From: a virus
DNA: 64,000 bases
Reading direction: 5' to 3' (one strand)
Virus record (IMG/VR): IMGVR_UViG_3300043774_001054
Coordinates: 1 to 64,000 of that record
This document shows positions 37,347-58,850 of the stretch, piece after piece. Position 1 is the stretch's first letter; each line of letters begins with the position of its first letter. The notes below the pieces were generated by a model that searched no databases, had not been told where the DNA came from, and saw nothing but the letters and a program-made list of their open reading frames with translations. Made by a program: the position numbers and the translations under genes.

Positions 37347-37354
37347 TATTTATA
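37347..37354 (-). promoter_or_regulatory. Late promoter TATAAATA for the baseplate operon
   Basis: Exact late box on the minus strand, 7 bases before the gp48 ATG at 37339. Together with the plus-strand box it forms a near palindrome (ATAAATATCTATTTAT) spanning the whole divergent gap, so two late operons start within 15 bases of one another. Confidence 0.6.
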
Positions 37355-37794
37355 TGACATATAAGGGCACCTTCACACCTAAGAATCCATCCAAATATCG
37401 AGGCAATGTGTCGAACATTGTCTATCGTTCTCTCTGGGAGCGACAGCTCTTTAGATGGCTCGACGAACAGTCATTCATTGCGTCATGGTGCTCGGAAGAG
37501 GTTGTGGTACCGTACCGCTGTAAGACGGACGGACGGATTCATCGGTACTTTGTCGATGTCAAGTTTGAATTTACCGATGGGCGCGTAATGTTGATCGAGG
37601 TAAAACCCAAGAAAGAAGTGAGTCCACCCAAGAATCCTGGTAAAAAGACTAAGAGATACATTACCGAGGTCATGACATATGCAAAAAACATCTCTAAATG
37701 GGAAGCGGCAACCGAGTACGCGAGCGACCGAGGGTGGATTTTTGAGATTTGGGACGAAGACATGCTCCGTAAGTTGGGCATTAAGATACTCTAA
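37354..37794 (+). CDS. 4: Head completion nuclease gp4
   Basis: 146 residues (T4 gp4: about 150). Strong match to the T4 gp4/gp50 head-completion family: SNIVYRSLWERQLFRWLDEQ, WCSEEVVVPYRCKTDGRIHR, YFVDVKFEF, VMLIEVKPKKE and RYITEVMTYAKNISKW. The acidic and lysine residues (E..., D in YFVDV, EVK) make a PD-(D/E)XK nuclease core. It trims or seals packaged DNA heads before tail joining. It is divergent from the baseplate operon. No Shine-Dalgarno precedes the start. Confidence 0.93.
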   Translation: MTYKGTFTPKNPSKYRGNVSNIVYRSLWERQLFRWLDEQSFIASWCSEEVVVPYRCKTDGRIHRYFVDVKFEFTDGRVMLIEVKPKKEVSPPKNPGKKTKRYITEVMTYAKNISKWEAATEYASDRGWIFEIWDEDMLRKLGIKIL

Positions 37795-38416: not shown

Positions 38417-38938
38417 ATGTCATCAATTAACGACTTAAAATCCCAGTTAATTAAAAGAAGCGGTCCTGCTCATCAGAATCGGTTTAAGCTCATGGCCACG
38501 CTACCACCGGCGGTGAGGTCACTTACAAACTCAGAGGATCTAAATATCCTATGTGAGAATTGTACACTTCCGGGAAGACAGATCAATACCTTCGACTATC
38601 AGCTATTGAGACAGTCTATTAAAATTCCGAATGGATACATTAACGAAGATGTAAATTTTACTTTTCTTCTTACAAACGACTACCACATTAAAAAGGTATT
38701 TGATCTTTGGTCTTCAAGCACCATTGATTTTTCAACATACCGAGCCAAGTACCTTGATAGTTACGCTGGCACATTTGAAATTTGGCAATTGGATAAAAAT
38801 GACAGAAAGGTTTATGGTGTTCGTTTAAATAATGCATTTCCTATTTCTCTGACGGGTATTGGTCTTGACAATAATGCAGAGAATACCATTCAGAAATTTA
38901 ATGTAACAGTAGCATACGAGGACTTTGCTACAATCTAA
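38417..38938 (+). CDS. Tail tube-like protein (gp19 fold)
   Basis: 173 residues. It follows the gp19 tube fold: NRFKLMATLPP at the start, ENCTLPGRQI where gp19 has its CKATALP loop, KIPNGYINEDVNFTFLLTND, VFDLWSS, then a closing ENTIQKFNVTVAYEDF strand like the gp19 end. T4 gp19 is 163 residues. It may be the tube protein or a tube-initiator version (gp54-type) because it lies beside the hub chaperones and tape measure rather than next to a sheath gene. It acts in the tail tube lumen. Confidence 0.75.
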   Translation: MSSINDLKSQLIKRSGPAHQNRFKLMATLPPAVRSLTNSEDLNILCENCTLPGRQINTFDYQLLRQSIKIPNGYINEDVNFTFLLTNDYHIKKVFDLWSSSTIDFSTYRAKYLDSYAGTFEIWQLDKNDRKVYGVRLNNAFPISLTGIGLDNNAENTIQKFNVTVAYEDFATI

Positions 38939-38980: not shown

Positions 38981-39688
38981 ATGGCACTACCAATCATTGA
39001 AACACCGAAATATGAAACAAAACTTCCTTCCAGCGGAAAGAAGTTGGTCTACCGTCCGTATCTGGTAAAGGAAGAAAAGATCCTAATGATGGCGATTGAA
39101 TCTGAGGATCAAAAGCAGATTATGCAGGCAATGAAGGATACTATTGCTTCCTGCACCTTTGGTAAAATTGATCCCAATACCCTACCGATTTTTGACCTGG
39201 AATACATTTTTCTAAAACTACGTTCAAAATCCGTGGGCGAAGTTGCCAAAATTGGTATCAAGTGCACAAGTTGTGAAAAATCAACTGTGAATGAAGTAAA
39301 TCTTGATGAAATCGCTGTGAATACAGAGAACGCTCCGTCCAATAAAATTAAACTGAATGACAAAATCGGAGTTATCATGCGTTGGCCCGATGTAAATTTC
39401 ATTACGGAAATGACGGGCAAATCAAAGGTCGAACAAAAAGCTGCGGCATATGACGTGCTTGTTCATTGTATTGAATCCATTTTTGATGACAAAAAGGTAT
39501 ATCCAACCTCAGAACAGTCTCGGGAAGAGGTTATTACCTTCATTGAATCATTGAATCAGGTCCAATTCCAGAAGATTCAAGAATTCATTGAGGCAATGCC
39601 AAAGCTTGAACATGAAGTTTCTTTTACCTGCAAACACTGCCAACATGAAAACAAGGTAATGCTCAGAGGACTCCAGAATTTTTTCTAA
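38981..39688 (+). CDS. 26: Baseplate hub/tail assembly chaperone gp26
   Basis: 235 residues (T4 gp26: 208). It opens with TPKYETKLPSSGKKLVYRPY and LVKEEKILMMAIES, the gp26 family start. A zinc-ribbon-like pair is seen: CTSC near residue 99 and CKHC near the end. EEVITFIESLNQVQFQKIQ is also typical. In T4 it is needed for hub assembly. The gene ends at a TTTTTTC slippery heptamer immediately before its stop, and gp51-like sequence continues in the -1 frame. It is followed by the tape measure, just where tail assembly chaperones occur in other tailed phages. Confidence 0.88.
   Translation: MALPIIETPKYETKLPSSGKKLVYRPYLVKEEKILMMAIESEDQKQIMQAMKDTIASCTFGKIDPNTLPIFDLEYIFLKLRSKSVGEVAKIGIKCTSCEKSTVNEVNLDEIAVNTENAPSNKIKLNDKIGVIMRWPDVNFITEMTGKSKVEQKAAAYDVLVHCIESIFDDKKVYPTSEQSREEVITFIESLNQVQFQKIQEFIEAMPKLEHEVSFTCKHCQHENKVMLRGLQNFF
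39679..39685 (+). promoter_or_regulatory. Probable -1 ribosomal frameshift site TTTTTTC
   Basis: T TTT TTC sits in the correct X XXY YYZ phase of the gene 26 frame, directly before its TAA (39686-39688). Slipping back one base reads TTT TTT CTA ATA GCC and continues into the gp51-like frame to 39873 without a stop. The gp51 frame has no ATG, GTG or TTG start before 39739, while its similarity begins upstream of that codon. Confidence 0.75.
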
Positions 39689-39873
39689 TAGCCCTCTCCC
39701 ACGATACACTGGTTAACCACTATCAAACGAACTTTGCAATGATGCAACATCATAAATACAGTCTTACAGAACTTGATCATATGATGCCTTGGGAGAGGGA
39801 AATCTACGTTTCACTATTAGTTGAGCATATCAAGGAAGAAAACGAAAGAGCTAGAAAGAAATCTCAAAAATAA
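39685..39873 (+). CDS. 51: Hub assembly protein gp51, probably made as gp26-51 frameshift fusion
   Basis: 62 codons in the -1 frame after gene 26: LIALSHDTLVNHYQTNFAMM, then YSLTELDHMMPWEREIYVSL and a charged helical end with HIKEENERARKK. This is the small gp51 type of marine T4-like phages. The only ATG starts (39739 and 39742) would leave just 44 residues and drop the conserved N-terminal part, so expression by -1 frameshifting from gene 26 (a fusion of about 297 residues) is preferred. The fusion and gp26 alone would resemble the G and GT tail chaperones of other phages. A non-ATG start at ATA 39688 cannot be ruled out. Confidence 0.8.
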   Translation, partial: LIALSHDTLVNHYQTNFAMMQHHKYSLTELDHMMPWEREIYVSLLVEHIKEENERARKKSQK

Positions 39874-39881
39874 CAACACCC

Positions 39882-42068
39882 ATGGCCGACGATAAAGACA
39901 GCACATTTAAAGATATTCTATATCAACTTCAGGTTGCGAATGAAGGCATGTTTGATAATATCTCGGTACTCAATAAGATTGAAAAACTTCTTGATGTGGG
40001 AAATATGCAGTCGTTGGCTTTCCAAACCGCCGAAAAAGAGGGTCCGAAAACTGAAACATCGGACGTCGGCGATAATAAGGAGGTTGTTGCGGGATTGAGT
40101 TTTCTGGCTGATATAGGCACCTCAAGTCTAAAAACTCTAAACAGAATAGACTTTGCATCAGATATTACGATGCAAAGAATTGTGGAAATGACGGATGCAG
40201 CAAAAGCAAGCGGTCTTCAGGCATTAGAAAATAATAGGGAGATGTTTGAAGTATTTGAAAAAATTCAAGAAGCTCTAAAAAACAAACCAGAAAACCCAGA
40301 GAAACCAGACAAATCAGATAAACCAGAAATGAGTTGGGCCACATGGGCAGTTGCCGTGGGTGCAGCTCTATTGGGTTTTGTCGAAGGCTTTGTGGCAGAA
40401 TTGGCAATTCAAGCCAAAGCTCTATTCACTAGACTCACTAAACTTTTAGACTTTGGTCCTCTATTAGCAAAAATTAAAGGTTCAAAGTTTGTTCTTACGA
40501 TAACAAGAGCATTTGAATCCATTGTTTTATTTGGCGAACGTCTTGGTGCCAAAATGGGTGACTTGTTTAAGATGTTCAAAAACTCGAACTTTGTTACGAA
40601 AATTACCGAAGGATTCACCAAGGTTTTAGATATCGGTAAGGACTTTGGTGCAAAGGTTAAAGGTATTTTTACCTCAGTTAAGAGTTTCTTTACTAATATA
40701 ATACTAAAAATTAAAAATATTGCAACAGGTATTTCTACGGCATTTGCTCCGGTAAGAGCTGCATTTGATGCGGTAATGAAATCTTTAGGGTTTGTGGATG
40801 AAGGAGCAAAATCAGTAGGTTTCTTTGGAAGAGCCATTAAAAGTATATCGGAAAAATTCGGGTTCTTAAAAAATATTGCAACTAAATTTTTTGGATTGGG
40901 CAAAGCATTTGGATCATTTCTAGGAAAATTCATGAAATTCATTCCTGGCATAGGAGCTGTTGTAGCAGTTATTGTGGGTATATTTGATTCAATTACAGGC
41001 TTCATCGATGGGTTTACAAAAACCGAAGGCAGTCTTATTGATAAGATTGTGGGCGGACTTAAAGGTGGTTTAACCGGACTTGTTAACGGTTTAATTGGAG
41101 GTCTCCTTGATATGCTCAAGGGTGCAGTTTCATGGATTGCAAAGGCTCTTGGTTTTGACGGTATTGCGGCAGCCCTGGACAGCTTTAGTTTTAGTGAAAT
41201 TCTCGGTAAACTAATCGGCAATCTTGTCGATGGTGTTGTAGGATTCTTTACCGATCAATTTGCGGTATTTAAAGTTCTATTCGATAACATTAAAAAGATG
41301 TTTAGCGGAGAGATTGATTTTAAAACGCTATTCCTTGAACTAATGGGTGGTATCATTAGAACCTTATTGGCACCAGTAAATGCCATTGGCAAATTAGCTG
41401 GGTTCGACATTACCAAGAAGGCTCTGAGTCTATTGGGCCTTCCAGATACAGGAAGAACCGATGTTGGTGGTACTCCTAAAGCTCCAAAGGTTAAAGCCGA
41501 TGCAGAAGTAAAGCCGGGAGAAAATGCTACTGAAACAAATACCGTAACAACTTCTACATCCGAAAGCATTTCTCTATCCGACAGAGAACGTCTTGAAAAA
41601 GAAGCACTCACTTCTACATCTGCGCTAGTAACAAATAATTCTATAATTGCCGCGCCGGGACAAGTTCAAACCTTGGTTGCACCAGCAGACATTAATTTAA
41701 CACCAATTGCAAATGTTAATGCGCCGATGGTCGGTAGCGATGCCGAAGTTCTAAATCGCTATGCCGAAACTGCTGAACTTGAGGCTCCGATGGTCGGTAG
41801 CGATGCCGCAGTTCTAAGTCGCTATGCCGAAACTGCTGAACTTGAAGCAATTGATAGTCCTATTGTCGGCGCCGAAATGAATGCACTTCAGTCAGACACG
41901 GCTCAAGCAGAAGCAGAACGTGCATCTACTCCTATTGTGATTCCTGCACCTGCATCGGGTCGAGGTGGCGACCGTAAGGTTATCAATAACTCACAGGCAA
42001 TTACCTACAACTCCAATAATATGCCCGACCGTACGGGCTGGATGTTGACTCCACAATTCGGGTACTAA
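39882..42068 (+). CDS. Tail tape measure protein (gp29 role)
   Basis: 728 residues. An N-terminal helical part (DILYQLQVANEGMF, LNKIEKLLDVGNMQ) and a Pro/Lys-rich link near 140 (ENPEKPDKSDKP) lead to a long hydrophobic helical region with repeated Phe/Lys/Gly motifs (KLLDFGPLLAKIKGSKF, then FFGRAIKSISEKFGF) and a likely membrane-active segment FIPGIGAVVAVIVGIFDSI. The low-complexity C-terminus carries a tandem repeat. Size and the position right after the 26/51 chaperones indicate the tape measure, which sets tail length and enters the cell envelope. Sequence similarity to T4 gp29 is not obvious. Confidence 0.75.
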   Translation: MADDKDSTFKDILYQLQVANEGMFDNISVLNKIEKLLDVGNMQSLAFQTAEKEGPKTETSDVGDNKEVVAGLSFLADIGTSSLKTLNRIDFASDITMQRIVEMTDAAKASGLQALENNREMFEVFEKIQEALKNKPENPEKPDKSDKPEMSWATWAVAVGAALLGFVEGFVAELAIQAKALFTRLTKLLDFGPLLAKIKGSKFVLTITRAFESIVLFGERLGAKMGDLFKMFKNSNFVTKITEGFTKVLDIGKDFGAKVKGIFTSVKSFFTNIILKIKNIATGISTAFAPVRAAFDAVMKSLGFVDEGAKSVGFFGRAIKSISEKFGFLKNIATKFFGLGKAFGSFLGKFMKFIPGIGAVVAVIVGIFDSITGFIDGFTKTEGSLIDKIVGGLKGGLTGLVNGLIGGLLDMLKGAVSWIAKALGFDGIAAALDSFSFSEILGKLIGNLVDGVVGFFTDQFAVFKVLFDNIKKMFSGEIDFKTLFLELMGGIIRTLLAPVNAIGKLAGFDITKKALSLLGLPDTGRTDVGGTPKAPKVKADAEVKPGENATETNTVTTSTSESISLSDRERLEKEALTSTSALVTNNSIIAAPGQVQTLVAPADINLTPIANVNAPMVGSDAEVLNRYAETAELEAPMVGSDAAVLSRYAETAELEAIDSPIVGAEMNALQSDTAQAEAERASTPIVIPAPASGRGGDRKVINNSQAITYNSNNMPDRTGWMLTPQFGY
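41721..41846 (+). repeat. Two 63-bp direct repeats in the tape measure gene
   Basis: Two tandem 63-base copies (41721-41783 and 41784-41846) differ at a few bases and encode 21 residues each, beginning APMVGSDA and ending ETAELE. A third degenerate start (SPIVGAEM) follows. They lie in the non-helical C-terminal tail. Confidence 0.85.
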
Positions 42069-58574: not shown

Positions 58575-58850
58575 TTAATTCCAAGTTCTGTGTTTTTCAG
58601 CAATCCATTCGTCCCCGTCGTATTCTTGAATCTGCCATTGGACATCATCGGGAATCTTTACAACTTTAAGTTCAGCAAATTCACCGTTGGCAGCTTCACC
58701 AAGTTGTTCCACAATTTCTACTAGAATAGGATTGTTGCGCTTGATGTCATCTTCATTGGTAATAATCGCACCGGCACGTTCATTAAAAAGAGCAAGAGCA
58801 GTCTTAGAAAGCCCAAAGGCACCGTGGCAATCATTAATTACAATTTTCAT
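58575..58850 (-). CDS. Conserved phage protein (IVINDCHGAFGLS family)
   Basis: 91 residues. MKIVINDCHGAFGLSKTALA, ELKVVKIPDDVQWQIQEYDG and EWIAEKHRTW at the end are a clear pattern of small proteins present in many phages and some bacteria. Function unknown. It overlaps its upstream neighbour by 17 bases. Confidence 0.75.
   Translation of the reverse strand: MKIVINDCHGAFGLSKTALALFNERAGAIITNEDDIKRNNPILVEIVEQLGEAANGEFAELKVVKIPDDVQWQIQEYDGDEWIAEKHRTWN

Follow-up and report, generated by a model that had tools for sequence, protein, structure and literature searches.

Comparative evidence for programmed -1 ribosomal frameshifting at the 3' end of gene 26 in a virus genome

The DNA analysed here is a stretch of 64,000 nucleotides (the window) lying within a 73,457-base record of a T4-like virus (IMG/VR IMGVR_UViG_3300043774_001054), for which no close DNA relatives were found in the phage collection. 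The features considered in this work are the following:

38417-38938, plus strand: protein of the tail tube family, either tube or tube initiator, immediately 5' of gene 26; phrog_3629 E 6e-32, phrog_45 E 1e-31
38981-39688, plus strand: gene 26, zero-frame coding sequence, short product of 235 aa; stop codon TAA at 39686-39688
39649-39873, plus strand: open stretch of the -1 frame with the gp51 domain; coding after the shift 39685-39870 (62 aa), stop codon 39871-39873
39679-39685, plus strand: slippery heptamer T TTT TTC, aligned with the zero frame; identified by sequence and by conservation in relatives
39686-39691, plus strand: 6-nt spacer between heptamer and stem, which includes the zero-frame stop codon; read from the sequence, and in relatives a spacing of 5-8 nt is seen for the best stems
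39692-39701, plus strand: 5' arm of the putative stimulatory stem, CCCTCTCCCA; pairing and covariation
39790-39799, plus strand: 3' arm of the same stem, TGGGAGAGGG, 10 bp with an 88-nt loop; pairing and covariation
39882-42068, plus strand: putative tape measure protein, 728 aa, the next gene; weak PHROG matches and position

The product of gene 26 matched the PF12322 (T4_baseplate) profile far above the cut-off (E 3.7e-62, 210 bits, cut-off 24.5), and phrog_150, baseplate hub, with an E value of 3.9e-64. Its AlphaFold2 model is confident (pLDDT 89, pTM 0.82), and the C-terminal part is zinc-ribbon-like. The matches of the 728-aa ORF to tape-measure PHROGs were weak (E 3e-5 for the best and 1.5e-4), and its top PHROG match was to one named endolysin (E 8e-8), it is likely but not certain that this gene encodes the tape measure protein. 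At 37354-37794 the window encodes a T4 gp4-like head closure protein, for which Pfam gives a match to the N-terminal domain of a TnsA-like endonuclease (E 2e-15).

In the zero frame gene 26 ends with CAG AAT TTT TTC TAA. The heptamer at this place is the sole in-phase TTTTTTY in the 18,655 codons of the 53 window ORFs, and only one other in-phase XXXYYYZ site in the same ORFs is located not more than 30 nt from a stop codon. An A AAA AAT heptamer at 58834, in a minus strand ORF, lies 22 nt before a stop, has a 38-codon -1 extension, and is probably there by chance. Among the viral contigs that were first collected as relatives by means of gp26, all 79 loci reaching the junction have the heptamer in phase. 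Three scans with other gp26 queries, in which selection was blind to the -1 frame, provided 95 further loci, and 93 of these carry an in-phase TTTTTT[C/T/A/G] that precedes the stop by 7-16 nt and leads into a homologous -1 ORF. When the loci were reduced to 111 non-redundant representatives, xxT TTT TTN was kept in phase in every one of them, as compared to a single T TTT TTY among 93 other Phe-Phe pairs inside the same genes, which served as control. Nearly all members contain six or seven consecutive T, and the seventh base of the heptamer varies freely among relatives. The heptamer also occurs in annotated phages belonging to Kyanoviridae, Emdodecavirus, Pootjesviridae, Schizotequatrovirus and Busanvirus, and among the annotated phage records inspected none has gene 26 and the -1 ORF annotated as a joined CDS. 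The existence of the site, its phase and its conservation are direct observations.

Last-base variants include T TTT TTG in Rhizobium phage relatives and T TTT TTA in L181 (junctions L090, L184 and L181). A gp26 relative in a 164-kb virus record (L190, positions 2240-2450) has the junction AAT CAG ATT TTC ATT TAA, in which the heptamer is absent and the gp51-like -1 ORF is kept; this suggests that in this virus the shift happens at a different site, perhaps through slippage of a single tRNA on T TTC. We do not claim a Shine-Dalgarno-like stimulator upstream of the heptamer, because the signal, with mean z values of -1.2 and -1.4 of which few were significant in single loci, was weak and the window ORFs make little use of such sequences. 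A Shine-Dalgarno-like 4-mer was found upstream of 7 of 51 window ORFs (14%, background 8%), and the leaders are A-rich, which may hint that the host itself uses Shine-Dalgarno sequences little.

The open stretch of the -1 frame comprises 12 codons ahead of the shift and 62 codons past it. Its product matched phrog_634, baseplate hub assembly catalyst, with an E value of 2.3e-28, and a fold search with the -1 domain gave no match. The first ATG, GTG or TTG of the -1 frame after the heptamer is the ATG at 39739, and the conserved residues ALSHDxLxNHYxxNF start ahead of it, at about 39691; in the window and its closest relatives 18 conserved codons under selection precede this start. Among the 111 representatives pN/pS of the -1 frame was 0.28 from the stop region to the conserved ATG and 0.17 after the conserved ATG, and no stop codon was found in the -1 frame in any of them. 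The other two frames had pN/pS values of 1.2-4.4 and many stops. The -1 frame is thus under purifying selection. Because of the pN/pS of 0.28 and the lack of stops, the segment before the ATG at 39739 must be translated, and since it is translated, an internal start at 39739 cannot account for the constrained segment ahead of that ATG.

In the window the segments 39692-39701 and 39790-39799 are complementary without mismatch, and the stem formed by them starts 6 nt past the heptamer. This distal stem was more stable than synonymous-codon shuffles in 18 of the 24 representatives of the window's clade (mean z -2.4); it was not significant in the remaining six, and one group (L026) has lost the stem. 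Two of its third-codon-position pairs co-change from CG to UA, and one of these two, 39696/39795, has the highest corrected mutual information among 8385 column pairs. After adding five sequences 91.7% of the cells pair, and the covariation score was 0.198, as compared to 0.111 for shuffled alignments (no shuffle scored as high) and at most 0.112 for slid partners. The distal stem was rejected as a universal stimulator, being unsupported in the other set of relatives (mean z -0.1). Many of these relatives, cyanophages among them, have instead a local hairpin of 8-11 bp, whose 5' arm starts at nearly the same place; in P-SSM2 its arms are GTATGGCTCA and TGAGTCATAC. In P-SSM2-like cyanophage loci the local hairpin had a mean MFE z of -3.4 (38/45), with a covariation score of 0.201 against 0.139 in shuffles, and compensatory changes were present. 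A joint search detected a significant stem 5-8 nt past the heptamer in 73 of the 111 representatives; the misses were 32 of the 87 representatives of other clades and 6 of the 24 of the window's own clade. An Rfam scan of the region returned only one sub-threshold chance match. It must be noted that the null models for the stems were codon shuffles and letter shuffles, and that shared ancestry is not fully removed by these, nor by the mutual-information ranks. Within this limit, a covarying stem 3' of the heptamer at a nearly fixed spacing is a property that can be seen in the alignments.

We consider it very likely (probability about 0.9) that the last codons of gene 26 form a programmed -1 ribosomal frameshift site, from which gp26 and a gp26-gp51 fusion would be made. 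There are no protein or reporter data; the comparative evidence, inferred from sequence alone, is strong, and every comparative test was passed. The sequence-only reading of the locus had proposed a programmed -1 frameshift joining genes 26 and 51, and this is supported by the conservation of the heptamer, the coding constraint in the -1 frame and the covarying stem. Its more specific statements also held: gene 26 ends in T TTT TTC TAA, a slippery heptamer in the right phase, and the -1 frame is open between 39649 and 39873 and encodes the gp51 sequence. Its statement that the conserved part of gp51 precedes any usable start codon held for the window's clade, where 39739 comes after the conserved residues. 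Of the outcomes that it had named as refuting it, two were tested: an unconserved slippery site in relatives, which fails outright (111/111 representatives), and an independent start of gp51, which is not available in the window's clade.

In the proposed mechanism most ribosomes would read AAT TTT TTC TAA and terminate, yielding gp26 of 235 aa. A fraction of the ribosomes, aided by the stem 6 nt downstream, would slip back one base on T_TTT_TTC and continue for 62 codons, yielding a gp26-gp51 fusion of 235 + 62 = 297 aa. Slippage itself and its rate are inferred, no frameshift product has been measured. During tail and hub assembly the short and the long form would then serve the tape measure protein as chaperones, in the manner of G/GT. 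In T4-type phages the corresponding two forms would come from a pair of paralogous genes, the short one from 26 and the long one from 51.

The proteins of phage T4 belong to the same family, and the C-terminus of T4 gp51 is homologous to the -1 product of the window. T4 differs in that its genes 26 and 51, although adjacent, are separate and divergently transcribed, there is no frameshift, and gp51 has its own gp26-like domain. Both T4 proteins match PF12322 (E 8.8e-64 for gp26 and 3.9e-52 for gp51), and the C-terminus of gp51 matches phrog_634. In hhalign profile comparisons the -1 products matched T4-type gp51 over its last 46 residues (E 2.4e-8, probability 95%), and gp26 matched the remainder of gp51 (E 1.2e-11). 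On the basis of these matches gp51 consists of a gp26-like domain and the domain which the window encodes in the -1 frame. T4 gp26 and gp51 are thus paralogues by sequence homology, with gp51 carrying the "-1" domain in frame.

The copy number of PF12322 follows the same division: each of the 26 records examined that contain the 26/-1-ORF cassette has a single copy, and each of ten T4-type records (T4, phiAS4, avDM2, 44RR, QL01, G5211, Kpn6N, EC-F2, ZZ1 and Campylobacter CJLB-14) has two. The test included partial contigs, among them the window's own 73-kb record, and the count of 26 includes L190, which lacks the heptamer, and the isolate ACP17 twice. The three PF12322 pieces of ZZ1 were counted as two genes, one of them split; in this Acinetobacter phage (L193) the deposited gp51 is in two overlapping pieces, due either to a sequencing error or to a real break. 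In the tree of PF12322 domains T4-type gp26 and gp51 fall together on one side of a branch (support 98/99), and the frameshifters, together with two long-branch Campylobacter copies, fall on the opposite side. As the tree is unrooted, the direction of change is unproven. Most simply, though without proof, the frameshift would have been replaced in the T4 lineage when the gene was duplicated; the tree favours one duplication only, and the Campylobacter phages may possibly represent a second case.

It is interesting to compare the window with systems in which tail assembly chaperone frameshifting is known. As in lambda G/GT and HK97 gp13/gp14, a -1 frameshift in the last part of a small gene, which lies just ahead of the tape measure gene (putative in the window), would give short and C-extended forms; the HK97 record is annotated with a tail assembly chaperone frameshift. 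The window protein differs from these in its family (PF12322, without sequence similarity to HK97 gp13), in its larger size and in its C-terminal zinc-ribbon-like part. In the contractile-tail phages P2 (E/E+E') and 186 (orf51/orf52), too, the tape measure gene is preceded by a -1 frameshift, and the site of phage 186, GGT TTT TTG, is of the same T_TTT_TT type as that of the window. In a Foldseek search of the PDB with the gp26 model the only matches listed with raised probability were the HK97 tail assembly chaperone 2ob9 (probability 0.44, E 1.7, about 55 residues) and the uncharacterised protein 3fgx (probability 0.41), and neither is significant (E 1.7-2.5). No sequence homologues were found in the PDB, hhalign profile comparison detected no relation to HK97 gp13, and the -1 product of phage 186 showed no significant profile similarity to that of the window. 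Since the fold matches are not significant and the profiles find no relation to known chaperones, a chaperone function can only be inferred. We think that gp26/gp51 are likely G/GT-like tail assembly chaperones, an analogy that rests on architecture and on T4 genetics and remains unproven. The sequence-only reading, which came to the same role by G/GT logic, held in part: the architecture fits, the role is inferred. Also partly right was its claim that the tape measure follows directly, as the next gene, at 39882, is confirmed and its identity is only probable. Its label "T4-type" was misleading, because T4 itself has no frameshift here and its gp26 and gp51 are products of separate paralogous genes.

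The alternative that survives best is that the frameshift is real, but its products are baseplate-hub assembly factors mechanistically unrelated to G/GT chaperones. In its favour, T4 gp26 and gp51 are genetically known as hub assembly factors, where they are listed as hub assembly chaperones, gp51 being essential and required yet absent from the particle, with a function described as unknown (PMC3004832); the negative profile comparisons with HK97 gp13 and with the -1 product of phage 186 also speak for it. Against it stands the G/GT anatomy of the locus, one N-terminal domain made in a short and in an extended version (at this point a prediction at the sequence level only) encoded between a tube-family gene, maybe of a tube initiator, and the putative tape measure gene with its weak matches. 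In addition, the T4 tape measure protein gp29 is itself a hub component (PMC3004832), and the highest-probability PDB folds include the HK97 chaperone, though not significantly. On balance we rate this alternative as less likely than the chaperone interpretation.

A second alternative, that gp51 is a separate small protein made by termination-reinitiation or from an internal start without frameshifting, is very unlikely. It can be supported by the ATG located 15 nt after the heptamer start in 54 of the 111 representatives, mostly P-SSM2-like, from which gp51 of P-SSM2 is annotated, and a missing Shine-Dalgarno sequence is no argument against it, because the window ORFs use such sequences little. 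However, it is contradicted by the late first start in the window and its closest relatives, leaves the retention of the in-phase heptamer in all 111 loci unexplained, and does not fit with the same domain being part of a fused gp51 in T4-type phages. Transcriptional slippage on the T run, for which only the presence of six or seven T in nearly all members could be cited (T6 is short for slippage by bacterial RNA polymerase), is likewise very unlikely, as it would not require phase, yet the run is always in phase with a free seventh base, and the covarying RNA stem at nearly fixed spacing suits a ribosome stimulator.

Returning to ribosomal frameshifting with a G/GT-like chaperone pair, a bolder reading can be offered, which taken as a whole we favour only by a narrow margin: the T4 superfamily would share a G/GT frameshift in gene 26, from which T4-type phages escaped via duplication into 26 (short) and 51 (long), so that gp51, the "hub assembly catalyst", would be the GT-type chaperone isoform; the 5' arm of the stimulator would have stayed near a fixed distance, while its pairing partner moved between lineages. 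A review by Atkins et al. (2016) described G-T frameshifting as conserved in long-tailed phages "except T4" (PMC5009743). We found no report of a gene 26/51 frameshift in the open-access literature searched; subscription papers were not covered, thus a prior mention cannot be excluded. Relatives of T4 appear to have the frameshift and T4 a paralogous pair instead, which may explain why T4 was listed as an exception, and a concrete, testable role is offered for T4 gp26 and gp51. The annotation of many cyanophage genomes can be corrected: P-SSM2, S-WAM1 and others share the heptamer and the -1 ORF with the window, differing in that many have the local hairpin and not the distal stem, and their records show two genes or lack gp51, none of those inspected having them joined. 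As a natural series, the family would let one follow a single recoding site that persists under a changing RNA stimulator, and also the apparent replacement of recoding by gene duplication.
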